From the NCBI RefSeq assembly GCF_005771525.1, contig NZ_VAVZ01000002.1:62001-126000 (forward strand): a stretch of DNA of 64,000 nucleotides, read 5' to 3'. The notes beneath the pieces are model-generated. The model made no database searches. It saw nothing but the letters and a program-made list of their open reading frames with translations, and had not been told where the DNA came from. Positions 51,388 through 64,000 of the stretch are shown here, one piece after another. This DNA is from Nesterenkonia salmonea. GTDB lineage: Bacteria > Actinomycetota > Actinomycetes > Actinomycetales > Micrococcaceae. Position numbers and translations under genes: made by a program. Position 1 is the first letter of the stretch. Every line of letters starts with the position of its first letter.

Positions 51388-52524
51388 ATGACGACACGGA
51401 GAATTCGCGGAGCTGTCCTGACCGCTTCAGGAGCTGAAGCCCCCTATCAGGACAGCCTGCCGCTGCAGGTCCGTGATGATCTCGCACTGTCCGAACCGGG
51501 TCATGACGAGCTGCTTATCCGCATAGAAGCGGCAAGTGTGTGCCACTCTGATCTCTCGGTGATCAATGGCGATAGGCCCAGACCAATACCTATGCTGCTG
51601 GGACACGAATCGGCCGGAATTGTTGAGCAGGTAGGTCCAGGCAGCGAGGATATCTCGGTCGGGCAGCGCGTGGTGATGACGTTCCTCCCCCGGTGCGGCG
51701 ACTGTGCAGGGTGCTCCTCCGAAGGGGTAATTCCCTGCACCAGCGGAAGTCGCGCGAACGAGAACGGCACCCTGCTCAACGGTGACCGGAGACTGGCTGA
51801 CTCCATGGGCAATGAGATTCACCACCATATGGGTGTCTCAGCTTTTGCCACATACGCGGTGGTTTCCAAACGTTCGGTTGTCCCGGTGGCAGATGATGTC
51901 CCGCCTGAGATTGCTGCTCTACTTGGCTGCGCCATGCTCACCGGCGGTGGAGCGGTGTTGAACGTGGCGAAACCTCAGCCTCAGGACCATGTGGCTGTCA
52001 TCGGCCTGGGCGGCGTCGGAGCGAGCGCTCTGCTGACTGCCCTGGCATTGGACGTCAAGCGGGTCACGGCAATCGACACCAATGAGAGCAAGCTCAACTT
52101 CGCCCGCAGGCTCGGCGCCCACGAAGTGCTGACCCCCAATCAGGCTGAAGACCAGAATATGGCCTTCGACGTCGTGATCGAGGCAGTTGGACACCCTCAA
52201 GCGTTTGAGGCCGGATACCGGCTCCTAGGCAGCGGCGGCCGCCTCGTCACGGTGGGGCTGCCGCGGCCCGGAAGCCAGGCAGTGATTGACCCGCTCACCC
52301 TGACTGCGGGCAATCGCTCGGTCCTGGGAAGCTACCTCGGCACCTCCGTCCCTGATCGGGACATCCCCATCTTTGAACAGCTCTGGCGTCAAGGACGCCT
52401 CAATCTCGAAGCTCTCATCACCAGCACGAAGACTCTGGACGAGATAAATGAGGCCATGGATCTGTTGGACCAGGCCCGTGAAGTTCGTCAGATCATCAGT
52501 TTTGGTCAGCGGCTGCCGAGCTGA
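51388..52524 (+). CDS. Zinc-dependent alcohol dehydrogenase, class III-like
   Basis: 378-aa MDR-family enzyme. Catalytic zinc ligands: Cys in SVCHSD and HE in GHESAG; structural zinc: four Cys in RCGDCAGCSSEGVIPC. Rossmann loop GLGGVGASAL. GGAG precedes the ATG at 51388. Divergent from the SDR unit across operator copy 4, so possibly co-controlled. Its last 29 nt overlap the end of the convergent amidase gene. Confidence 0.9.
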   Translation: MTTRRIRGAVLTASGAEAPYQDSLPLQVRDDLALSEPGHDELLIRIEAASVCHSDLSVINGDRPRPIPMLLGHESAGIVEQVGPGSEDISVGQRVVMTFLPRCGDCAGCSSEGVIPCTSGSRANENGTLLNGDRRLADSMGNEIHHHMGVSAFATYAVVSKRSVVPVADDVPPEIAALLGCAMLTGGGAVLNVAKPQPQDHVAVIGLGGVGASALLTALALDVKRVTAIDTNESKLNFARRLGAHEVLTPNQAEDQNMAFDVVIEAVGHPQAFEAGYRLLGSGGRLVTVGLPRPGSQAVIDPLTLTAGNRSVLGSYLGTSVPDRDIPIFEQLWRQGRLNLEALITSTKTLDEINEAMDLLDQAREVRQIISFGQRLPS

Positions 52525-54493
52525 CGGCCGCTTTGACGATGCCGCCGACTGCGGCCTTGGTGACCACGAGCACCTCCTCGGTGCTGCGTTTGCGCCGGGC
52601 GGAGACTCTGCCGCGGAACGTATGCGGGGCAGAGTCTGCGGGAACCAAGATATGGCCATCGGCCCAGACCTGAACCCTGGGATCCTCGGCATCGGTGTGT
52701 ACGCGGACGGTCAGCTCCCAGTGGGCGTCTGCGCGTTCGACCAGAACGTCGTGGGAGACCGTGAACTCGATCATCTGCCTCGCTGCAGGCACCCGGACCT
52801 GATTGCTCGGCAGGGTCGGCGTCAAGAACGGTGTGACCCGGCGCTTAGCCGTCCGCTCATAGGCCCACGCAAAGTTCAGCAGCGTGTCATCTTTATAGGC
52901 CGCCCCGGCAAAGGTCAGCCCCACCGGCATCTGCAGATCCGCCATGGCCCCCATAGGCACGGTCACCGTCGGAATCCCCAGGTGGCGGATCACCCGGTTA
53001 CCGGTGGAATAGACCACACCGTTTTGGCTGGCAGCCGCTTTCGACTCCGGACGCACAAACAGGTCGTCCCGCCCAACGTCACCCGCGGCGGGAAAGACCA
53101 CTGCGTCCAATCCCCGCTGACGCATCCAGTCCTCGAAGTCCCGCTTGCGCGCCTCCTCAAGTCCGCGCAGCAAAGCGTCAAGGCCGTCGACCTCGTCGAA
53201 TGTCTGCGGCAGGCCTGCTTTGGCGAGCTCGACTATACGCTGCCAGTCGAAGCCGCCGCGGGCCCGCTCGATCCAGACCGGCACCGGGGCGTCTTCAGTG
53301 GGGAAGACGGCATCGCCGTCCACATCGGCCCACGTGTTCAGCCTGGGATCAGCGTTGAGGCGCAGGAACTGCTCCATGGCGATAGCGGTGACCGGACCGC
53401 CCTCCAGCTCCCGCCAGTTGGCCGGAAGCATCCCGCGCTCCACCAGTGACTCCGCGCTGGGCCGGTCCTCCTCGTAGTTGGAGACTACGGGGAAGTCGAC
53501 TTCCACGACCTCTGCCCCGAGGGCCTCCAAATCCGTGCGAGCCCGCCGCCACAGAGCTTTGACCGAGTCGCGCACCGCCGGCGGAACGGCAGCCTCAGCG
53601 TCCTCACCGATGAACATTCGGGGTACCCCGAGGCGAACGCCGTCGAGCCGCTCGGTCCGTTCATGCACAAAGGTTGCCGGGCGCACCGATTCAGGGCTGG
53701 GCAGCTCCACTGCCCTCTGTTGGCGCCAGAAGTCTCCTGCGGGGTCCGGATCGTCAACCACCAGCACATCGAGCAGCCGCAGCAGATCTGCCACCGTTCG
53801 GGTATGCGGTACGACGACGTCGCAGGAGGGTCGCAGCGGCCAGTTCCCGCGGATGGAGATCAGTCCGCGCGAGGGGGTATAGGCCACCAGCGAATTGTTC
53901 GACGCCGGCGAGCGCCCGGAGGAGACCGTCTCCTCCCCCATGCCGAAGGCACTGAAGCTCGCAGTGGTGCCGGTGCCCGAGCCGCTGGAGGAGCCCGAGC
54001 CGTAGGCCGCAGTGAGATAGTCCGGATGGTACGGGCTGCGGGCATACCCGTAGACCCCGGGCTGGATGCCGCCGGCGGCCATCGGCGGCATATTGGTCTT
54101 GCCCAGCAGCACCGCCCCGGCCCTGCGAAGTGCTTCCACAGCAGCGGCGTCCTTGGTCGCCACCAGGTCTTTGAACGCCACCGAGCCGGAGGCCACCGTG
54201 AGGTTTTTGACCATATAGCTGTCCTTCACGGTGAACGGCACCCCCTCCAGGGGGCGCACGGGGTCACCTCGGCGCCGACGCGCGTCGGAGGCCTCCGCCT
54301 CGGTGAGGCATTCTGGGTTGATGATCGGCACCGCGTTGAGGCACCACCCGGTGCGGTCGTAGTAGCCGATGCGGTTCAGATAGGCGCACACCAGGTCCAC
54401 GCTGGTCAGCCTGCCGGCCTCCAGCTCGTGGAGCATCTGGCCAATGCCCAGCTCGACCACATCCAGCACCTCAGCTGCGGCACGCTCATTCAC
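52496..54493 (-). CDS. Amidase signature-family hydrolase with extra C-terminal domain
   Basis: About 665 aa. The AS core has the Lys in FTVKDSYMV and a Ser-rich segment GSGSSSGSGTG in place of GGSSGG. The nucleophile region GEETVSSGRSP stands in place of GTDxGGSIR; the Ser at the nucleophile position is kept. About 90-100 residues after the core look like an added beta-rich domain. GTG at 54493 has GGGAG about 9 nt upstream, 13 nt after the binding-protein stop. Last gene of the F420-linked operon; likely hydrolyses an open-chain amide formed by upstream steps. Unusual motifs make substrate guesses unsafe. Confidence 0.85.
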   Translation of the reverse strand: MNERAAAEVLDVVELGIGQMLHELEAGRLTSVDLVCAYLNRIGYYDRTGWCLNAVPIINPECLTEAEASDARRRRGDPVRPLEGVPFTVKDSYMVKNLTVASGSVAFKDLVATKDAAAVEALRRAGAVLLGKTNMPPMAAGGIQPGVYGYARSPYHPDYLTAAYGSGSSSGSGTGTTASFSAFGMGEETVSSGRSPASNNSLVAYTPSRGLISIRGNWPLRPSCDVVVPHTRTVADLLRLLDVLVVDDPDPAGDFWRQQRAVELPSPESVRPATFVHERTERLDGVRLGVPRMFIGEDAEAAVPPAVRDSVKALWRRARTDLEALGAEVVEVDFPVVSNYEEDRPSAESLVERGMLPANWRELEGGPVTAIAMEQFLRLNADPRLNTWADVDGDAVFPTEDAPVPVWIERARGGFDWQRIVELAKAGLPQTFDEVDGLDALLRGLEEARKRDFEDWMRQRGLDAVVFPAAGDVGRDDLFVRPESKAAASQNGVVYSTGNRVIRHLGIPTVTVPMGAMADLQMPVGLTFAGAAYKDDTLLNFAWAYERTAKRRVTPFLTPTLPSNQVRVPAARQMIEFTVSHDVLVERADAHWELTVRVHTDAEDPRVQVWADGHILVPADSAPHTFRGRVSARRKRSTEEVLVVTKAAVGGIVKAAVSSAAADQN

Positions 54494-54506
54494 GGTGGAG
54501 ACTCCC

Positions 54507-55679
54507 TCAGTCGGCTTCGTTCTCGAAGCTGACCTCGATGGGCTCCCAGTTCTCGCCAGTGAGGTCGAGGTCCTCATCCTCCAGGTCAGCCAGTGCCTGT
54601 TCAATATACTCGTTGGTCCAGGCGTCGTCGCTGGGTTCTTCGGTGATCGGGGAGTCGTCCTGCTCGTTGACTGCCTCCAGGGCTGCGGCGACCGTGTCAT
54701 CCCAGGCGGCCTCGTCAATCGTGGCGAAGCCGTCCTCGGCCGGCCAGATCAGCGCATTGGTCTCGTTGACCATCCACAGCTCATGGTCGTACTCCCAGCC
54801 GGAGCCGGCGTTGATGGTGATCTCGGCGGCTTCCTCCGGGTTCTCCGCCGCCCACGCCCAACCACGGGTCACCGCACGCAGGAAGGCGACGGTGGTCTCC
54901 TCATAGTCGGCGTCGTCGGCCAACCGTTCGCCGTCGGCCCAGATGGCATCCTGCAGCATGGCGCCGCCGGTCTCCTCGTATTCGATGACGGTGAAGTCAT
55001 CCTCGGTGTAGAGCTCGCCGGTGTCCGGGTCGGTGGCCTGCAGAAGCTGGGCGTATTCGTTGTAGGTCATGGCCTGGGCGGCGTCGATATCGCCCTCCAG
55101 GAAGGCGTTCATGTTGAAGTCCTGGGTGATGATGTCCACCGTGGTGGAGTCCAGGTCGTATTCGGCCATGGCAGCGAAGATCTCCCACTCATTGCCGAAT
55201 CCCCACGAGCCGATGCTGCGACCTTCGAAGTCTTCGACGCCTTCAATGTCGCTGTCGGCCCAGGCGACCTGCAGGGTGCCGGAGCGCTGGAATACCTGGG
55301 CGATGTTCACCAGATCGGCTTCGGTGGCCTCCATAGTCTCCAGGACCTTCGGCACCCAGGCGATGGCGTAGTCAACCTCGCCATTGGCCAGGGCGTCCTG
55401 CGGGACGATGTCGCCGCCGGATTCGATGATCTCGACCTCCAGGCCCTCTTCCTCGAAGAAGCCCTGTTCGGCGGCGGCGAAGTAGCCGGCGAACTGCCCC
55501 TGGGGCAGCCACTGCAGCTGCAGGCTGACCTCGGTCAGCTCACCGTTGTCCCCGCCTGCCTCGGCGTCGTCGCCGGTGTCTGCCTCGTCGGCTCCACAGG
55601 CGCTCAGCGCCAGTGCGCCTGCGGCGAGGGTGCCCAGTGCTGCACTGCGGAAGGAGTGCCTTCTGATGGTGTGCTTCAT
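54507..55679 (-). CDS. NMT1/THI5-type solute-binding lipoprotein
   Basis: 390 aa; signal peptide with lipobox LSAC, acidic linker, and mature start EVSLQLQWLPQGQFAGYFAAAEQGFFEEEGLEVEI, the pyrimidine-binding NMT1/THI5 type (hydroxymethylpyrimidine, formylaminopyrimidine and hydantoin-like ligands). No thiamine riboswitch was seen upstream. In this operon a pyrimidine- or hydantoin-like ring is the expected ligand. Confidence 0.9.
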   Translation of the reverse strand: MKHTIRRHSFRSAALGTLAAGALALSACGADEADTGDDAEAGGDNGELTEVSLQLQWLPQGQFAGYFAAAEQGFFEEEGLEVEIIESGGDIVPQDALANGEVDYAIAWVPKVLETMEATEADLVNIAQVFQRSGTLQVAWADSDIEGVEDFEGRSIGSWGFGNEWEIFAAMAEYDLDSTTVDIITQDFNMNAFLEGDIDAAQAMTYNEYAQLLQATDPDTGELYTEDDFTVIEYEETGGAMLQDAIWADGERLADDADYEETTVAFLRAVTRGWAWAAENPEEAAEITINAGSGWEYDHELWMVNETNALIWPAEDGFATIDEAAWDDTVAAALEAVNEQDDSPITEEPSDDAWTNEYIEQALADLEDEDLDLTGENWEPIEVSFENEAD

Positions 55680-55730: not shown

Positions 55731-56549
55731 TCAGCCGGCGGCGGCCCGGCGTGATCGGTTGGCCAGCCACTCCAGCAGCAGCGTGGTCAGGTAGAACATC
55801 AGGCCCAGCACGATGGAGGCCAACACATAAGCCCAGGCACGCGGATACTGACTCGACGCCGCGGCGGTGGAGATGATGCCGCCGAGTCCGCCGCGTGGGC
55901 CCCCGAAGTATTCGGCCACCAGTGCGGATATCACTGCCAGGGACGAGGCCAGCCGGACCCCGGTGAAGACATAGGGAACCGCGGTGGGCAGTGTGATGGT
56001 GAAGAAGATCTGTATGGGGGTGGCCGCGTAGGTGTGCATGAGATCGCGCAGCTCGGGGTTGGTCTGCCGCAGACCGCGCAGCGTGGAGACGAAGACCGGC
56101 ACAAAGCTGGCCAGGGCTGCGATGGCCTGGCGCGGGAACTGCGTGGAGCCGAACATGGTGTTCAGGATCGGTGCCAGCGCCACGATCGGGATCACAGCAA
56201 GGGCTGCGACCAGCGGGTTGACCATCGCATTGGCAGATTTCGACGCCGCCGCCAGCGCGGCGAAGAACACTCCGAGCAGGGTGCCGGCCACGAGCCCGGC
56301 CAGGGAGTTCCAGCCGGTGATCAGTGCCGCACTCCAGATGTGCTCAAAAGCTCGGTTGGCCTCGGCGAAGATCGCCGTGGGGGCCGGCAGCAGGTAGCTG
56401 GAGATCCCGAAGACCCCCACGAGCAGCTGCCAGAGCAGCAGGCCCAGCACACCCACCAGCACCGGGGCGAGAACCCGACCGGTGGTCAATCGGCGCGCCG
56501 AGAGTGTCCCTGGCCCGACCACCGGCGAATCCGTCAGCTGTTTGCCCAT
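55731..56549 (-). CDS. ABC importer permease of the pyrimidine/hydantoin-type system
   Basis: 272-aa SsuC/ThiX-type membrane subunit, about six helices; ATPase-contact loop LMHTYAATPIQIFFTITLPTAVPYVFTG is split typical family sequence. One-base overlap with the ATPase gene (stop/start at 56549). Confidence 0.9.
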   Translation of the reverse strand: MGKQLTDSPVVGPGTLSARRLTTGRVLAPVLVGVLGLLLWQLLVGVFGISSYLLPAPTAIFAEANRAFEHIWSAALITGWNSLAGLVAGTLLGVFFAALAAASKSANAMVNPLVAALAVIPIVALAPILNTMFGSTQFPRQAIAALASFVPVFVSTLRGLRQTNPELRDLMHTYAATPIQIFFTITLPTAVPYVFTGVRLASSLAVISALVAEYFGGPRGGLGGIISTAAASSQYPRAWAYVLASIVLGLMFYLTTLLLEWLANRSRRAAAG

Positions 56550-57433
56550 CAGCGGTTCTCCACGCCGTGTCCAGTCGAGGTGCGCCCGGACCCCTGTGTG
56601 CCGCCCTGGCCCGACCTGCCGTGGAGTGATTCCCGCACAGCGGTGATCATGTCGAAGTAGGAGGTGTCCTCCCGCAGCTCATCGGTCCGTTCATCGGTGC
56701 TCTGCAGCTTCATGTCGATCACTTCAGCGATCCGGCCCGGCCGCGGGGACATCACCACCACTCGGTCCGAGAGGTAGACCGCCTCGGGTATCGAGTGGGT
56801 GACGAAGACGACGGTGGCGGAGGTCTCCGCGCAGATCCGCAGCAGCTCAGTCTGCATCCGTTCCCGGGTCATCTCATCGAGCGCCCCGAACGGCTCATCC
56901 ATCAGCAGCAGTCGAGGTTTCTCAGCAAGCGACCTGGCGATCGCCACGCGCTGCTGCATGCCTCCGGAAAGCTGGTCGGGGTGACGGTCGGCGAAGTCGG
57001 CGAGCCCGACCATCTCCAGCAGCTCTGCCACGCGAGCCTTGCGGTCCGCAGTCGAGGACTTGTGCAGCTGCAGCGGCAGTCCAACGTTGTCCGCCACCGT
57101 CCGCCACGGCAGAAGCCCTGCCTTCTGGAAGGCGATGCCGTAGTCCTGGTCCCGCCGCGCCCGGTCCGGGCTCTTGCCGAAGACACTCAGCTGGCCGCCG
57201 GTGGGAGCCTCCAGGTCGGCAATGAGCCGCATCAGCGTGGACTTGCCGCAGCCGGAGGGGCCGATCAGTGAGACGAACTCCCCCGGCGCCACGGTCAGGC
57301 TGACGTCGGAGAGTGCGTGCACCTGCCCCGAAGAGGTCGAAAAGACCTTCTCCACATTGGTGGCCTGGACTGCCGTCGGGGCTGCAGCCTCCGGTGCCGG
57401 CGTCGTCGAACCTGCTGTATCCGGAGTAGTCAT
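56549..57433 (-). CDS. ABC importer ATPase of the pyrimidine/hydantoin-type system
   Basis: 294 aa: Walker A GPSGCGKST, signature LSGGMQQR, Walker B LLLMDEPFGALD, H-loop FVTHSIPEAV, SsuB/ThiZ type. AGGAGGAG precedes the ATG at 57433, which overlaps the preceding permease stop by 4 nt. The N-terminal 30 residues are Ala/Pro/Thr-rich and variable. Confidence 0.92.
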   Translation of the reverse strand: MTTPDTAGSTTPAPEAAAPTAVQATNVEKVFSTSSGQVHALSDVSLTVAPGEFVSLIGPSGCGKSTLMRLIADLEAPTGGQLSVFGKSPDRARRDQDYGIAFQKAGLLPWRTVADNVGLPLQLHKSSTADRKARVAELLEMVGLADFADRHPDQLSGGMQQRVAIARSLAEKPRLLLMDEPFGALDEMTRERMQTELLRICAETSATVVFVTHSIPEAVYLSDRVVVMSPRPGRIAEVIDMKLQSTDERTDELREDTSYFDMITAVRESLHGRSGQGGTQGSGRTSTGHGVENR

Positions 57434-58338
57434 GAACTCTCCTCCTGTCGTCGGTAGGTGCGCAGCGTCAGGCCAAGCAGGGCTACTGATCCAGCTGCGA
57501 CGAGGCCGAGGGCCACTGCGCCGAAGACCGGGCCCCACGCTTTGGCCGGATCATTGGAGGCCTGTCCCGCCCATTGGATGAGCAGACGTCCGATGCCGCC
57601 GCGCAGACCGGTGGAGACCTCGGCCACCACCGCCCCGATCACCGCGTTCGCTGCGGCTAAGCGCATAGCGGCCAGCAGAAAGGGCACCGCCGCCGGCAGC
57701 CGGAGCCGCAGCAGCATGGTCCACCAGCCCACCGCATAGGTGCGCATCAGTTCGGTGTGGCTGGTCTCTGGCGACTGCAGTCCTTTGAGCACGCCCACAG
57801 CGATCGGGAAGAACGCCAGCCAGGAGGCGATCAGCGCCACCGACATCCAGTCGCGCCACTCGAAGAACGGCGGGTCCAGTTGGATCCCCCAGTTGCGCAC
57901 CACCGGAGCGAAGGCGATGATCGGCACCGTCTGCGAGAGCACGATCCAGGGCAGCAGACCCCACTCAGCCAGCCGCCAGCGCAGCATGATCAAAGCCAGA
58001 CCGAAACCGACGACGACGCCCACCACCCAGCCCGCGGCCGCGATGCCTAAGCTGAATGCCGCTGCAGTGACCACGGCCACCCACAGTGGGTCCGCATTGG
58101 GCGCACCGGTCTCGCCTTCGAACATCCGGGTCACCATGTCCCAGGTGTGCGGCATGGCCAGATCCGAAGTCCGCGGCAGGATCCGGGTGTCGAACACCAT
58201 GACCCCGTCGCTCGGGCCCAGAAATTTGTAGACTTCCCAGAGCACCAGCAGCGCCAGGAGTCCGGCCGCTCCTCCCAGCCAGGCACGGCGAGCACCGGAG
58301 CGGTCTTTGAGCTTGACGGTGGTAGGTGCCGCGCTCAT
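57430..58338 (-). CDS. ABC importer permease of the pyrimidine/hydantoin-type system (second)
   Basis: 302-aa membrane subunit, SsuC/ThiX-like, about six helices with ATPase-contact loop ELMRTYAVGWWTMLLRLRLP. Two distinct permeases again imply a heterodimer. Start overlaps the F420-dependent dehydrogenase stop by one base (TGATG). Confidence 0.9.
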   Translation of the reverse strand: MSAAPTTVKLKDRSGARRAWLGGAAGLLALLVLWEVYKFLGPSDGVMVFDTRILPRTSDLAMPHTWDMVTRMFEGETGAPNADPLWVAVVTAAAFSLGIAAAGWVVGVVVGFGLALIMLRWRLAEWGLLPWIVLSQTVPIIAFAPVVRNWGIQLDPPFFEWRDWMSVALIASWLAFFPIAVGVLKGLQSPETSHTELMRTYAVGWWTMLLRLRLPAAVPFLLAAMRLAAANAVIGAVVAEVSTGLRGGIGRLLIQWAGQASNDPAKAWGPVFGAVALGLVAAGSVALLGLTLRTYRRQEESS

Positions 58339-59432
58339 CAGGGAGTCTCCGGCACGATCTGCGGCACCGAAGCTTTCAGCTGACGCAGCCGGGGAGCGAG
58401 GTCTCGCTCAAAGAGCTGCATGAACCGGCGCTGATCGTTACCCGGTGCGTGGAAGACCAGATGGTTGAAGCCGGCGTCGACGTAGCGGCTGATCTGGTCC
58501 ACCGTTTCGTCAGCGTCGGAGGAGACGATCCAGCGCGAGGCGATCTGCTCAATGGGCAGCGCATCTGCGGCGCGCTCCATCTCCACCGGGTCGTCGATGG
58601 TGTACTTGGCTTCCTTGGACAGTGACAGCGGCGCCCAGAACCTGGTGTTCTCCAGGGCGGCCTGCGGATCCGGGTCATAGGAGAGTTTGATCTCTATCAT
58701 CCGGTCGATCTGGGAGAAGTCCCGGCCATTGGCAGCCGCCCCTGCGGCTACCGCCGGCATGAGCTTCTCGGTGTAGAGCTCCATCCCCTTGCCGGAGGTG
58801 CAGATGAAACCCTCCCCCGCCCGGCCGGCGTATTTGGCCACCGTGGGTCCGCCTGCGGCGATGTAGACCGGGACCGGGGAGTCCGGCTTGTCGTAGATGG
58901 AGGCATCAACGGTGCTGTAGTAGTCCCCGGAGAAGCTCACCCGGTCCTCTCCCCAGAGCGCACGAATCAGCCGGACGGCCTCGCGGAACCTGGCGAAGCG
59001 TTCCTTGAACGCCGGCCACTCCAGCCTCTGGGCTCCGGACCAGCCGGTGGCAGTCTCATTGAGCGCTTCCCCGGAGCCGACGCCGAGAATCACCCGGCCC
59101 GGGTAGAGCGCACCGAGGGTGCCGAAGGCCTGGGCGATGACGGCGGGGTTGTACCGGTAGTGCGGTGTCATCACCGAGGTGCCCAGGGTGATCTGACTGG
59201 TGCGTTCGCCCGCGGCGGTCAGCCAGGCCAGGGAGAAGGGCGCATGTCCTCCGGTGTGCCGCCAGGGTTGGAAGTGGTCGGAGGCGAACGCGGAGTCGAA
59301 GCCGGCGTGCTCCGCGGCCACGGCCAGTTCGACCAGCTCGCGGGCACCGAACTGCTCGGCTGAGGCTTTGTAGCCCAGGGTCAGCGGCACAGTGTGCGGG
59401 GGTGCGTCAGCGGGATTCGGCATGTTCGTCAT
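58338..59432 (-). CDS. fgd: F420-dependent glucose-6-phosphate dehydrogenase
   Basis: 364-aa luciferase-like F420 enzyme closely following mycobacterial FGD1: [54 protein letters not shown] and [10 protein letters not shown]-type end. Active-site His53, Trp57 and Glu122 correspond to FGD1 His40, Trp44 and Glu109. The phosphate-binding Lys198, Lys259 and Arg283 of FGD1 correspond to Lys215, Lys276 and Arg300 here (FGD1 numbers from memory), with a 4-residue insertion near 133-137. All are kept, so it should oxidise glucose-6-phosphate and make F420H2. Overlaps the next F420-type gene by 4 nt. Confidence 0.92.
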
Positions 59433-60457
59433 GATGCGGCGATGATCTGTTCCTGCAGCGCAGGGATGATCTTCTGCCCGTAGCGCAGCATAGTGGTGTC
59501 CTCGTTGTCGTGGCCGAGGTAGCCGGCGAATTGGGTCATGCCCAGTGCGGCGAGCTTTTCGAGCTTGGCGATGTGCTCCTCCACGGTGCCGATGAGGCAG
59601 AACCGTTCGACAATCTCATCGGGCACGAAGTCCACGTGGTCGTTGCCGGAGCGGCCGTGCTGGTTGTAGTCATAACCCTGCCGGCCGGCGATGTAGTCGG
59701 TCAGCGCTGTAGGCACCTTGGAGTCGGTGCCGTAGCGGTCGACGATATCGGCCACATGGTTTCCGACCATCCCACCGAACCAGCGGCACTGCTCGACCGC
59801 GCGGCGGTGATCCGCCTCGCTGCCGTCGGTGACGTAGAAGGGTGCGGCGACGCAGAATTTGATGGTGTCGGGATCTCGTCCAGCCTCCTGGGCGGCTTCA
59901 CGGACGGTGGTGATCATCCATTCGGCGATGTCCACATCGGCGCACTGCAGGATGAACCCGTCGCCGACCTCGCCGGTGATCTGCAGCGCCTTGGGCCCAT
60001 AGGCGGCGACCCACATCTGAAGCTCAGAGCCGCGGCTCCAGGGAAACTGGATGGTGGCATCGTTGATCTGGGCGGGCCGAGAGTTGGCCAGTTCGCGGAT
60101 GGTCTCGATGGACTCCTTGAACTCCCGCAGCCTCACCGGCTTATCGCCTTTGACCCGAACCGCGGAGTCCCCGCGGCCGATTCCGCATATGGTGCGGTTG
60201 CCGAAATGCGCGTTCAGCGTGGCGTAGATGGAGGCGGTCACCGTCCAGTCCCGGGTGGCTGGGTTGGTCACCATCGGTCCGACTTTGATGCTGGTGGTCT
60301 GCGACAGGATCTGCGAGTAGATGACATACGGCTCCTGCCAAAGAATGTGGGAGTCGAAGGTCCAGAAGCAGTCGAAGGCGAATTCCTCTGCCCTGCGGGC
60401 CAGCGCGATGGTGCGCGCAGCCGGGGGATTCGTCTGAGCGACGACACCAAATTCCAT
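59429..60457 (-). CDS. F420-type luciferase-like oxidoreductase (CPS_4043-like family)
   Basis: 342-aa luciferase-like enzyme. [53 protein letters not shown] and [26 protein letters not shown] place it in the F420-associated family found next to hydantoinase/dihydropyrimidinase genes. GAGAGGAAA precedes the ATG. Its 4-nt overlap with fgd suggests it uses the F420H2 made by that enzyme, probably to reduce a ring bond before hydrolysis. Reaction not established by sequence; FMN use cannot be excluded. Confidence 0.82.
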
Positions 60458-60473
60458 CGGGGTTTCCTCTCGT

Positions 60474-61889
60474 TCAGATCAGGTACTGGGACAGGCCGCG
60501 CTTGACGAACTGTCCGTGAGACTTCAGTCCGTGGTATTCGCCGTCCTCGACCAGCACCTTGCCGCGGGAGAGGGTGAGGTCCACATGGCCGTCGATCTCG
60601 AAGCCCTCCCAGGCGGAGTAGTCCATGTTCATGTGATGGGTCTTGTCCACCCCGATCGATGTCCTCCCCTTGGGGTCGTAGATGACGATGTCGGCATCAG
60701 CCCCGGGCTGGATCACGCCCTTCTTGCCGTACATGCCGAACATGCGTGCCGGGGTGGTGGAGATCAGCTCCACCCAGCGGGGCAGTGAGATCCGGCCGTC
60801 GACCACGCCTTGGTAGAGCAGGTCAACCCGGTGCTCCACGGAGCCGATCCCGTTGGGGATGGCCCGGAAGTCGTCCTTGCCGAGCTCCTTCTGGTCCTTC
60901 ATGCAGAAGGGGCAGTGGTCGGTGGAGACCATCTGCAGGTCGTTGGTGCGCAGACCCTGCCACATGGCCTCAAGGTGACCGTCCTGTTCGCTGCGCAGTG
61001 GGGTGGAGCAGACCCACTTGGCAGCTTCGAAATCACCCCATTCCTCCGACGTCGCGCCCAGCTGCTTCTCCAACGACAGATAGAGGTACTGCGGGCAGGT
61101 CTCACCGAAGACGTTCTTTGCCTTGTCGCGGGCCCAGGCGACCTGTTCCACGGCCTGTTTGGCGCTCATATGCACGATGTACAGAGGTGCATCGGTGAGG
61201 TCTGCGAGCATGATGGCCCGGTGCGTGGCCTCCTCCTCCATCTGCCAGGCGCGGGCGATGCCGTGGTAGTACGGCGCGGTTTTGCCCTGGGCGGCGAGCT
61301 GCTCAGCCAGCACATCGATGGCGGGCCCGTTCTCCGCGTGCATCATGGTCATCAGCCCGAGTTCACGGGCCTTCTGCATTGCTCTGAGGATCTGCGCGTC
61401 ATCGGCGTAGAAGACACCGGGATAGGCCATGAACATCTTGTAGCTGGTGACGCCCTCATCGGCGAGGGACTCCATGGCTTTCAGGGAGTCGTCGTCTACC
61501 CCTCCGATGATCTGATGGAAGCTGTAGTCGATGGCGCAGTTGCCGGCGGCCAACTGGTGCCAGGTCTCCAGGCCGTCCTGCACGCGTTCGCCCTGCTTCT
61601 GGATCGCGAAGTCGATGATCGTGGTGGTCCCGCCCCATGCGGCCGCCCGGGTGCCGGTCTCGAAGGTGTCGGAGGCATTGGTGCCGCCGAAGGGCATCTG
61701 CATATGGGTGTGGGCGTCGATGCCACCGGGGATGACGTATTTGCCGGCCGCGTCGATGACTTTCTCCGCGGCCACCTCTTGGCTGCCGGGGCTGAAGAGC
61801 GCGACGACGGTCTCATCTTCGATCAGCACATCCGCCTGCGCGGTGCCTGTGGCGTTGATGACGGTTCCATTGATGATCAGAGTCTTCAT
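60474..61889 (-). CDS. hydA: Dihydropyrimidinase/hydantoinase
   Basis: 471-aa cyclic amidohydrolase. Metal ligands His60 and His62 (AHTHMQMPFGG), the carboxylated Lys151 (TSYKMFMAYPG), His184 (MMHAENG) and the Asp in VSTDHCPF are all present. It opens 5,6-dihydropyrimidines or hydantoins to N-carbamoyl amino acids. AGGAG precedes the ATG. It stands between the nitrilase-family carbamoyl hydrolase and the F420-type oxidoreductase, the order expected of a reductive pyrimidine-type route. Confidence 0.93.
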   Translation of the reverse strand: MKTLIINGTVINATGTAQADVLIEDETVVALFSPGSQEVAAEKVIDAAGKYVIPGGIDAHTHMQMPFGGTNASDTFETGTRAAAWGGTTTIIDFAIQKQGERVQDGLETWHQLAAGNCAIDYSFHQIIGGVDDDSLKAMESLADEGVTSYKMFMAYPGVFYADDAQILRAMQKARELGLMTMMHAENGPAIDVLAEQLAAQGKTAPYYHGIARAWQMEEEATHRAIMLADLTDAPLYIVHMSAKQAVEQVAWARDKAKNVFGETCPQYLYLSLEKQLGATSEEWGDFEAAKWVCSTPLRSEQDGHLEAMWQGLRTNDLQMVSTDHCPFCMKDQKELGKDDFRAIPNGIGSVEHRVDLLYQGVVDGRISLPRWVELISTTPARMFGMYGKKGVIQPGADADIVIYDPKGRTSIGVDKTHHMNMDYSAWEGFEIDGHVDLTLSRGKVLVEDGEYHGLKSHGQFVKRGLSQYLI

Positions 61890-61922
61890 CGGTCTGTCTC
61901 CTACCGGGTTCGTGGGGTCAGG

Positions 61923-62771
61923 TCAGGGAGCGACGATGGCGCCGTAGCCGTCAGGGCGGCGGTCGCGGTAGAACTGCCAGCTGTCGCGGGCCTGGTAGAT
62001 GAGGTCCATGTCAAGGTCACGGACCAGCAGCTGCTCGGTCTCGGATGAGCCGACCTCGCCCACATAGTTGCCGCGGGGGTCGACCACGTAGCTGGTGCCG
62101 TAGAAGTCCACGGCGAGTTCGCCGTACTCGTTGTCCTCTTTGCCGACTCGATTCGGCACCACCACGAAGTAGCCGTTGGCTGCTGCAGCGGTGGGCTGCT
62201 CGATCTCCCAGAGCCGGTTGGACAGGCCAGGTTTGGAGGCGTTGGGATTGAAGACGATCTCTGCGCCGGCCAATCCCAGCATCCGCCAGCCCTCGGGGAA
62301 ATGCCGGTCGTAACAGATGGTCACACCGATGGTGCCGATGGAAGTTTTGAAGACCGGCCAACCGAGGTTGCCGGGTCGGAAGTAGAACTTCTCATAGAAC
62401 TTGTCCACATGCGGGATATGCATCTTCCGATAGCTGCCGACCGTGGAGCCGTCGGAATCGACCACCACGGCAGTGTTGTAATAGACCCCGGGCATCTCTT
62501 CTTCATAGATGGGCAGGATCATCACCATCCGGAGCTCCTTGGCCAGGGCGGCGAACCGCTGGACGATGGGACCGTCGGCGGGTTCGGCGAAGCGGTAGTA
62601 CTTAGACTCCTCGGTGATGCCGAAGTACGGACCGTAGAAGAGTTCCTGGAAGCAGATGGCCTGCGCCCCCTGGGCCGCGGCGTCGCGGGCGAACCCCTCG
62701 TGCTTGTCCAACATGGACTCTTTGTCGCCGGTCCATGTGGTCTGACTCAGCGCAACTCGAACGTCGACCAT
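61923..62771 (-). CDS. Nitrilase-superfamily N-carbamoyl amidohydrolase (beta-ureidopropionase-like)
   Basis: 282-aa carbon-nitrogen hydrolase with the Glu43-Lys116-Cys153 triad (FQELFYGPYF, SYRKMHIP, ICYDRHFPE). The surrounding residues match beta-ureidopropionase/N-carbamoylputrescine-type enzymes, which release CO2 and NH3 from N-carbamoyl compounds. GGGGGA lies 6 nt before the ATG. First gene of the nine-gene operon, divergent from cofC. Confidence 0.9.
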   Translation of the reverse strand: MVDVRVALSQTTWTGDKESMLDKHEGFARDAAAQGAQAICFQELFYGPYFGITEESKYYRFAEPADGPIVQRFAALAKELRMVMILPIYEEEMPGVYYNTAVVVDSDGSTVGSYRKMHIPHVDKFYEKFYFRPGNLGWPVFKTSIGTIGVTICYDRHFPEGWRMLGLAGAEIVFNPNASKPGLSNRLWEIEQPTAAAANGYFVVVPNRVGKEDNEYGELAVDFYGTSYVVDPRGNYVGEVGSSETEQLLVRDLDMDLIYQARDSWQFYRDRRPDGYGAIVAP

Positions 62772-62966: not shown

Positions 62967-63629
62967 ATGAACACGGTGTCAGTGCGGGCGGTGTCAGTGC
63001 GGGATGCGCATCCGGTGTCCTGGACTCTCATCGTCCCCGTCCGCCATCCCGGAACGGGCAAGACCCGGCTGCGGCTCGGCCGGCAGCACAGTCTGGCAGC
63101 CGCCATAGCCCGGGACACACTGAGCGCTGTCACCTCGTGTGCGCGGGTGCGGCGGGTGGTGCTGGTGACCGACGACGCCGCCTGGACCCCTTTGGTCACC
63201 GCCGGACTGACGGTAGAGATCGCCGTTCAGCAGCAGGCTGGCTTGGACGCTGCAATAGCGGAGGGACTCCGGTGTGCTGGCAGCGGACCGACAGCGGTGC
63301 TGCTGGGTGATCTTCCCGCGGTGCGCGCAGAACACCTCGACAGCGCCCTGGGTGAAGCAGCTTCAGTGCCGAGGGGTTTCGTGCCCGATCACTGGGGAAC
63401 CGGCACCACGCTGATCACCGCACTGGTAGCGGCTGAGCATCGGCCCCAATTCGGTCCGGGATCAGCGGCCCGGCACTCGGCGGCGGGCTACCGTGAGCTG
63501 GCAGCTGCCCCGGCACTGCGGGCAGATGTGGACACCGCCGAGGACTTGGACGCGGCCAGCGCGCTGGGACTGGGCGAGGCGACGTCGCTGGCCGTCTCCG
63601 GTATCTCTGCCGAGAGAGCACTCCGATGA
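62967..63629 (+). CDS. cofC: 2-phospho-L-lactate/phosphoenolpyruvate guanylyltransferase of F420 synthesis
   Basis: 220-aa nucleotidyltransferase (CofC/FbiD). It starts WTLIVPVRHPGTGKTRL (the family's VPVKxxxxxKSRL), has VVLVTDDA, VLLGDLPAV (metal Asp) and PDHWGTGT. It activates phospholactate or PEP with GTP for F420 side-chain assembly. The start is uncertain: ATG 62967 has GGGGAG directly adjacent, while GTG 62976 has better spacing, and a 15-bp tandem repeat spans the region. Overlaps fbiC by 4 nt. Confidence 0.9.
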   Translation: MNTVSVRAVSVRDAHPVSWTLIVPVRHPGTGKTRLRLGRQHSLAAAIARDTLSAVTSCARVRRVVLVTDDAAWTPLVTAGLTVEIAVQQQAGLDAAIAEGLRCAGSGPTAVLLGDLPAVRAEHLDSALGEAASVPRGFVPDHWGTGTTLITALVAAEHRPQFGPGSAARHSAAGYRELAAAPALRADVDTAEDLDAASALGLGEATSLAVSGISAERALR

Positions 63630-64000
63630 CGAAGATTCCGGTGAGCATCAGTCCCGCAGCTGCCAGACCGGCGGACGCTGCACCGCAGGTCGAACACTCC
63701 CGCACCGCCGAAATTCTGGCCCGGGTTGCTGCCGGCATCCCCCTGACTGTGGATGATGCTGCTGCTCTGCTGGCCGTCCGGGGCGAGCAGTTGGAGCAGC
63801 TGCTGAGCCTCGCCGCGCAGTCGCGCGACAGCGGCCACGGACGGCGAATCACCTATTCCCGCAAAGTTTTCATCCCACTGACCACGCTGTGCCGGGACCG
63901 CTGTCACTACTGCACGTTTGTCGACACTCCCGGTCAGCTTCGCGCCGACGGGCGAGCACCGTATCTCAGCCGCGAGGAGGTGGTGGAGATCGCCCGGCAG
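63626..64000 (+). CDS. fbiC: FO synthase (radical SAM), N-terminal part, cut by window edge
   Basis: First 125 residues of the 7,8-didemethyl-8-hydroxy-5-deazariboflavin synthase. The radical-SAM cluster motif CRDRCHYCTF holds Cys89, Cys93 and Cys96 (CxxxCxxC), preceded by RRITYSRKVFIPLTTL, the CofG-domain start. It makes the FO chromophore of F420 from tyrosine and a pyrimidinedione. In actinobacteria it is usually a CofG-CofH fusion; the rest lies outside the window. ATGA overlap with cofC. Confidence 0.92.
   Translation, partial: MTKIPVSISPAAARPADAAPQVEHSRTAEILARVAAGIPLTVDDAAALLAVRGEQLEQLLSLAAQSRDSGHGRRITYSRKVFIPLTTLCRDRCHYCTFVDTPGQLRADGRAPYLSREEVVEIARQ

Follow-up and report, generated by a model that had tools for sequence, protein, structure and literature searches.

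A candidate F420-dependent route of reductive pyrimidine degradation in Nesterenkonia salmonea, with a luciferase-fold protein as the proposed ring reductase

How could a bacterium that carries a dihydropyrimidinase, an enzyme that needs a reduced ring, reduce that ring if no dihydropyrimidine dehydrogenase (DPD) is found in its genome? The question is raised by a locus of Nesterenkonia salmonea (GCF_005771525.1, contig NZ_VAVZ01000002.1, positions 62,001-126,000), a stretch of 64,000 nt that is referred to here as the window. From position 62771 downward, a minus-strand operon encodes a CN-hydrolase, the dihydropyrimidinase HydA, a luciferase-fold protein of the family TIGR03842 (F420_CPS_4043), an F420-dependent glucose-6-phosphate dehydrogenase (FGD), a permease, an ATPase and a further permease of an ATP-binding cassette (ABC) importer, an NMT1-type binding protein and an amidase. 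Besides FGD, the TIGR03842 protein is the sole oxidoreductase of the operon, and the two genes share 4 nt (59429-59432). An earlier reading of the sequence alone (the sequence-only reading) had described this gene set, with the overlap and with a nitrilase-family enzyme that is the CN-hydrolase; all genes were found where it had put them, on the minus strand, and the TIGR03842, FGD and HydA proteins exceed the cut-offs of their curated models. The four genes at the centre of the argument are the following.

59429..60457, minus strand: TIGR03842 luciferase-fold oxidoreductase, proposed F420H2-dependent uracil/thymine 5,6-reductase (TIGR03842, 546.8 bits, cut-off 295.45)
58338..59432, minus strand: FGD, F420-dependent glucose-6-phosphate dehydrogenase (TIGR03554, 602.1 bits, cut-off 420)
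60474..61889, minus strand: HydA dihydropyrimidinase (TIGR02033, 550.8 bits, cut-off 393.25)
61923..62771, minus strand: CN-hydrolase, proposed beta-ureidopropionase (PF00795)

The reductive pyrimidine pathway proceeds through ring reduction, ring opening, decarbamoylation, transamination and oxidation to an acyl-CoA. We consider it likely that the cluster represents this pathway running on F420, and that the TIGR03842 protein is an F420H2-dependent uracil/thymine 5,6-reductase which replaces the non-homologous dihydropyrimidine dehydrogenase. The importer would take up uracil, thymine or a relative, and the TIGR03842 enzyme, instead of PydA/DPD, would reduce the 5,6 double bond of the ring with a hydride taken from F420H2, so that dihydrouracil or dihydrothymine is formed. 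HydA would then open the reduced ring, the CN-hydrolase would strip the carbamoyl group to leave beta-alanine or 3-aminoisobutyrate, a class III aminotransferase would yield malonate or methylmalonate semialdehyde, and an MmsA-type dehydrogenase would produce the acyl-CoA. The cofactor would be supplied by a divergent cofC-fbiC-cofD group plus cofE and recharged by FGD with electrons from glucose 6-phosphate, or from NADPH by NpdG in Brevibacterium jeotgali and Leisingera. Uracil and thymine as substrates, and reduction as the direction of the TIGR03842 reaction, are what we infer from this arrangement. Equally putative are the particular substrates of the CN-hydrolase, the aminotransferase and the importer. 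For the CN-hydrolase, the best NCBIfam model was N-carbamoylputrescine amidase, under cut-off (245.1 vs 410.25), and solved sequences gave similar scores (CG3027-PA 184.1 bits, an N-carbamoylputrescine amidohydrolase 179.5, a beta-ureidopropionase 171.6); beta-ureidopropionase is the activity that we propose. The nearest solved relatives of HydA are D-hydantoinases and dihydropyrimidinases.

PydA was not found in the host genome, which is 98.5% complete; its single match to the DHO_dh family was, from its translation by eye, an ordinary dihydroorotate dehydrogenase (PyrD). Ring reduction is thus an expected step that lacks a known enzyme in this organism. Relatives were drawn from two sources, namely a scan of named genomes for close relatives, of which the best 80 of at least 592 were kept (65-73% identical, all actinobacteria as judged by their titles), and a broad sample of 296 genomes across Actinomycetota, from which one TIGR03842 locus per genome was fetched, giving 61 other carriers (genome G130 has a second full copy outside the fetched loci). 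From the 80 close loci we chose 45 named carriers, mostly isolates on longer contigs, with contigs of at least 3 kb. PreA exceeded its cut-off in none of the 62 TIGR03842 genomes of the broad sample, where matches at an E value of 1e-80 or better were listed, and in none of the 45 named carriers, all of which revealed weak partial matches (103 bits for the strongest, with the cut-off at 335). The fetched TIGR03842 stretches contained no PreA either (0/80 close, 0/61 broad-sample). The sole PreA locus fetched, from genome G208, displays HydA, a Zn-hydrolase, PreA and PreT together, partners like those that surround TIGR03842 elsewhere.

The partners of the TIGR03842 gene are widely conserved. 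Neighbours were called by the best tblastn match of at least 60 bits, which names families and not exact functions, and were counted on either strand of the fetched stretches, many of which end at contig ends. The 80 close loci showed HydA in 75, a CN- or Zn-hydrolase in 78, an aminotransferase in 51, an MmsA-type gene in 27, an NMT1-type protein in 53, an F420 biosynthesis gene in 43 and NpdG in 4. Among the 61 broad-sample loci, HydA was present in 45, one of the hydrolases in 55, an aminotransferase in 42, NMT1 in 17 and an NCS1 symporter in 28; the 34 near-full stretches of this set revealed HydA in 28, a hydrolase in 33 and an aminotransferase in 26. Locus L100 has the order HydA, aminotransferase, Zn-hydrolase, NCS1 symporter and TIGR03842. 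The families that fill a position vary: the hydrolase beside HydA and TIGR03842 is either a CN-hydrolase or an unrelated Zn-hydrolase, the transporter either an NMT1-type ABC importer or an NCS1 symporter, and in Brevibacterium jeotgali (L008) it is an NCS2 permease whose best model, under cut-off, is the pyrimidine transporter RutG. Such trading of places between non-homologous partners is expected if the whole pathway, and not one gene pair, is under selection.

The association is also seen at the level of whole genomes. Over their cut-offs, TIGR03842 was detected in 62, HydA in 87 and CofG in 148 of the 296 genomes. HydA accompanies TIGR03842 in 59 of 62 genomes as opposed to 28 of the 234 without it, and CofG in 52 of 62 as opposed to 96 of 234; the Fisher tests applied to these co-occurrences ignore relatedness. 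The sequence-only reading had noted the lack of a PydA-type dehydrogenase in the window, had suggested that the second F420-type enzyme takes the place of the NAD(P)H-dependent dihydropyrimidine dehydrogenase, with HydA and the nitrilase-family enzyme acting after it, and had called for a survey of the gene set, and of PydA/Pre, across genomes. PydA was not found in the host genome as a whole, PreA over cut-off is absent from the carriers, and the set of HydA, ureidopropionase-type hydrolase and TIGR03842 recurs widely, so that its central suggestion is supported by the comparative tests.

What kind of protein would perform the missing step? PF00296 is the only Pfam match of the TIGR03842 protein, which has no homology to PreA (DHO_dh family); it may work like DPD but, judged by its sequence, lies outside the PydA/PreA/DPD family. 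Its nearest solved relatives by sequence are F420-dependent methanopterin reductases (Mer). An AlphaFold2 model with a pLDDT of 90.2 was compared with solved structures, and ranks 1 to 14 were all taken by F420-enzyme families (Z 35.1 to 28.8), with Mer at 35, the alcohol dehydrogenase Adf at 32 and FGD1 at 30. The first enzyme using flavin mononucleotide (FMN) was SfnG at rank 15 (Z 28.4), which ties with the last F420 enzymes and lies well under Mer. These relationships suggest F420 as the cofactor. Residues N233, H234, D237, R259, Y262, D263, Y264 and H267 are invariant in TIGR03842 proteins and are predicted to form the lining of the ring pocket.

A link to F420 is further seen on plasmids. 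TIGR03842 is carried at 43-44% identity by 11 plasmid records, ten from Leisingera and one from Paracoccus, and in all 11 it is surrounded by a cof/npdG block (one is cut by its own start). On the Leisingera aquaemixtae plasmid, genes for a nucleobase symporter, hydA, a Zn-hydrolase, an aminotransferase and a transhydrogenase are divergent from cofGHDCE-npdG-TIGR03842, and on the Paracoccus alcaliphilus plasmid the same cofGHDCE-npdG-TIGR03842 series is followed by an ABC importer.

The remaining genes of the host locus, within the window and past its end, are listed here.

57430..58338, minus strand: ABC permease of the importer (PF00528), which follows TIGR03842 in many relatives
56549..57538, minus strand: ABC ATPase of the importer, start codon uncertain (PF00005)
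55731..56549, minus strand: second ABC permease (PF00528)
54507..55679, minus strand: NMT1/THI5-type substrate-binding protein (PF09084)
52496..54718, minus strand: amidase, start codon uncertain, probably near 54500 (NF005127, 721.3 bits, cut-off 575)
62967..63629, plus strand: CofC, 2-phospho-L-lactate guanylyltransferase, divergent from the operon (TIGR03552, 116.5 bits, cut-off 105)
63626..64000, plus strand, running on beyond the window to about 65929: start of fbiC (FO synthase), from open reading frames and a domain scan
about 65926-67455, past the window end (L005:5927-7456): flavin monooxygenase (FMO)-like gene between fbiC and cofD
past the window, after the FMO-like gene: cofD, named by its own sequence and its match to Leisingera cofD
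past the window, after cofD, minus strand: cofE (CofE, 243.1 bits, cut-off 180.65)
past the window, after cofE, minus strand: PucR-type regulator (PucR domains)
about 70929-72449, past the window, plus strand: MmsA-type semialdehyde dehydrogenase (TIGR01722 (MMSDH), 681.2 bits, cut-off 448.5)
about 72471-73880, past the window, plus strand: class III aminotransferase (NF004718, 720.7 bits, cut-off 472)

Judged by its gene families, the locus would thus bring together the making and recharging of F420, the opening of the ring and the breakdown of beta-alanine. In fbiC, the CofG domain scored 483.7 bits (cut-off 213.35) and the CofH domain 334.3, under its cut-off of 374.1. The sequence-only reading, which did not mention that the genes divergent from the operon belong to F420 biosynthesis, had found no beta-alanine aminotransferase; this holds for the window but not for the locus, where the class III aminotransferase is encoded some 8.5 kb beyond the last position of the window, next to the semialdehyde dehydrogenase. 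An incomplete pathway for want of this enzyme was accordingly rejected. Two genes stand apart: the amidase at the end of the operon has no obvious place in the pathway, and the ends of the FMO-like gene overlap fbiC and cofD, a similar gene (47-48% identity) being found near fbiC in loci L015, L016 and L038.

Several observations weigh against the F420-dependent reading. PreA is rare in the phylum (2/296 genomes), and its absence from the 62 carriers is therefore weak evidence by itself. Neither TIGR03842 nor PreA is carried by 27 of the 87 HydA genomes, and dihydropyrimidinase-type genes therefore also serve other pathways. Four Brevibacterium loci (L008, L009, L011 and L013) show a CN-hydrolase followed by TIGR03842 and no HydA in the locus, the rest of these genomes not having been searched for it, and no HydA was found within the 29 kb fetched of the Paracoccus alcaliphilus plasmid. 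F420 biosynthesis genes lie near TIGR03842 in none of the 61 broad-sample loci compared with 43 of the 80 close ones, so that only the close relatives and the plasmid group show this adjacency. Outside Actinomycetota the F420 link rests on plasmid records, because chromosomes were sampled only within that phylum. FGD of more than 50% identity was present in just 5 of the 80 close stretches and in none of the 61 others. In structure, Foldseek placed F420 enzymes at ranks 1 to 13 and a luciferase at rank 14; a shared fold alone settles neither cofactor nor function, and the structural ties noted above belong on this side as well. CofG, finally, exceeded its cut-off in 17 of the 45 named carriers and in none of the other 28 (e.g., L007, L008, L020 and L052), where CofH was not searched; in the broad sample, 10 of 62 carriers had no CofG at a threshold of 1e-60, and two of these, the draft genomes G119 and G160, had neither CofG nor CofE.

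How firmly is FGD tied to this pathway? The enzyme is 73% identical to FGD1 of M. tuberculosis and, aligned to 3b4y_A, identical at 23 of 27 checked sites (including E13, D39, H40, W44, S73, V74, E109, N112, K198, K259 and R283), differing at 107, 255, 256 and 260. Seven key residues are retained, as the sequence-only reading had claimed: Glu13, His40, Trp44 and Glu109, which we take to be catalytic, and Lys198, Lys259 and Arg283, presumably the phosphate site. The protein is thus a true family member predicted to oxidise glucose 6-phosphate with F420. That it is a dedicated recharging partner needed specifically by this pathway across the family seems unlikely to us. The 4-nt overlap in the host speaks for such a role, as does the same order of CN-hydrolase, HydA, TIGR03842 and FGD on a 4.7-kb contig of the Corynebacterium-like bacterium B27 (L010). 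However, no second FGD exceeds the cut-off in the host genome, which has 14 luciferase-family matches, so that this one may serve several F420 enzymes, FGD is scarce near TIGR03842 elsewhere, and in genomes G268 and G225 (100% completeness, 4 and 1 contigs, loci L162 and L163) FGD, at 73% identity, instead lies together with cofE and cofC. Direct adjacency of FGD and TIGR03842 is lineage-specific, and the recharging module proposed earlier stands locally but not family-wide. The other F420 reductase near TIGR03842 is NpdG, in Brevibacterium jeotgali (L008; TIGR01915, 219 bits, cut-off 149.8), in Leisingera (187 bits, same model) and in Paracoccus.

Could the operon act on another ring, such as hydantoin, a substituted dihydropyrimidine or a modified base, which the TIGR03842 enzyme reduces or oxidises? 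HydA-family enzymes open hydantoins too, and the TIGR02033 model is itself named D-hydantoinase/dihydropyrimidinase. A further point for another ring is that neither the NMT1 importer nor the amidase has a defined substrate. On the other hand, the nearby aminotransferase and MmsA-type dehydrogenase fit beta-alanine and 3-aminoisobutyrate, NCS1 symporters or the RutG-like NCS2 permease replace the importer elsewhere, and the partners at the PreA locus are of the same kinds, which together render a different ring quite improbable.

Slightly less probable still is that the TIGR03842 enzyme reduces the pyrimidine ring with FMN/NADH and that the F420 genes adjoin it by chance or through shared regulation. 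FMN use is common among luciferase-fold enzymes, an FMN enzyme scores level with the lower F420 enzymes among the structural matches, the "F420-dependent" label given to TIGR03842 by NCBI is only a hypothetical-equivalog name, and 28 of the 45 named carriers show no CofG match above the cut-off. Opposed to this are CofE, which exceeds its cut-off in all 45 named carriers, the presence of CofG or CofE in 60 of the 62 sample carriers, the joining of cofGHDCE-npdG to TIGR03842 on the Leisingera and Paracoccus plasmids, and the F420 enzymes that top both the structural and the sequence matches. Two known luciferase-fold activities were rejected: Mer is the closest solved relative by sequence and structure, but the protein reaches only 112.8 bits with TIGR03555 (cut-off 348.7), its gene context differs, and Glu6 of Mer (the residue mutated in 8qq8) is replaced by V, T or C in 37 of 37 aligned TIGR03842 proteins; RutA likewise acts on uracil, but it is an FMN-dependent ring-opening oxygenase that needs no dihydropyrimidinase, whereas TIGR03842 occurs with one, and it ranked below the F420 enzymes (Z about 24.7).

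Two variants of the protein were encountered. A sister luciferase-fold protein on a plasmid of Variovorax sp. PBL-E5 (L004; 202.7 bits to TIGR03842, under cut-off) has as its neighbours npdG, RidA, cofGHDCE, a CN-hydrolase and a gene resembling allantoinase/hydantoinase. Of the invariant residues, 25 of 35 are retained up to position 200 but 8 of 21 beyond it, so that this protein probably acts on another ring substrate. In the single-contig genome G225, which has no CofG match, TIGR03842 is split over two frames (G225:C1:2193491-2194476), possibly by decay or a sequencing error.

If the TIGR03842 enzyme uses F420, where do carriers without CofG obtain it? Either such carriers must build their F420 from FO that they import, or the enzyme works with something other than F420. 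CofE is over cut-off in 8 of the 10 sample carriers lacking CofG, and this retention strengthens the F420 link because CofE is an F420-specific ligase. A CofH search in the same ten found one protein over cut-off (G280), one just under it at 344 bits (G290) and a fragment (G119), three assemblies that may be incomplete, and nothing convincing in the remaining seven, which include G268 and G225. The 28 named carriers without CofG thus apparently can complete F420 yet cannot make FO, its deazaflavin core. Read most simply, they would take up FO made by other microbes; no paper on such salvage was found in the open-access literature.

The Pyd pathway with PydA/PreTA shares with the present system a dihydropyrimidinase, a ureidopropionase-type hydrolase, a class III aminotransferase and a nucleobase transporter; the difference lies in a luciferase-fold, probably F420H2-dependent ring reductase unrelated to PydA/PreA, and PreA was not found in the carriers. 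Comparable proteins, likened here by their descriptions, are known from two other settings. For uric-acid gene clusters of Chloroflexota, a putative F420-dependent luciferase-family reductase (PF00296) was proposed as a stand-in for the PydA homologue UacX, likewise in a reductive N-heterocycle pathway but acting on yanthine in the purine breakdown of anaerobes (PMC12507026). In mureidomycin/napsamycin biosynthesis, disruption of the gene for the putative F420/FMN oxidoreductase SSGG-03002/NpsU showed that it takes part in uracil C5-C6 reduction, though an in vitro assay failed; this protein differs by its role in antibiotic biosynthesis and its uridyl peptide substrate (PMC10714638). The passages on these proteins do not mention TIGR03842, and our search of the open-access literature found no paper that assigns the proposed role to TIGR03842 proteins, and none for CPS_4043 or TIGR03842 by name.

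To our knowledge, no role has been assigned to many of the F420-dependent enzymes found in soil and marine bacteria. More tentatively, and with rather less confidence than in the reductase itself, we put forward that TIGR03842 might constitute a third, non-homologous and F420H2-using class of dihydropyrimidine dehydrogenase and the main reductive pyrimidine route in Actinomycetota, forming one block with F420 biosynthesis on the Leisingera and Paracoccus plasmids, and that more than half of the named carriers might run on F420 built from the FO of others, which would tie pyrimidine use to a shared precursor. If TIGR03842 proteins are indeed F420H2-dependent uracil/thymine reductases, this widespread family would gain a concrete step in central nitrogen recycling, an enzyme class would be added for uracil reduction, the presence of F420 biosynthesis on these plasmids would be explained, and FO would possibly be a metabolite exchanged between microbes.

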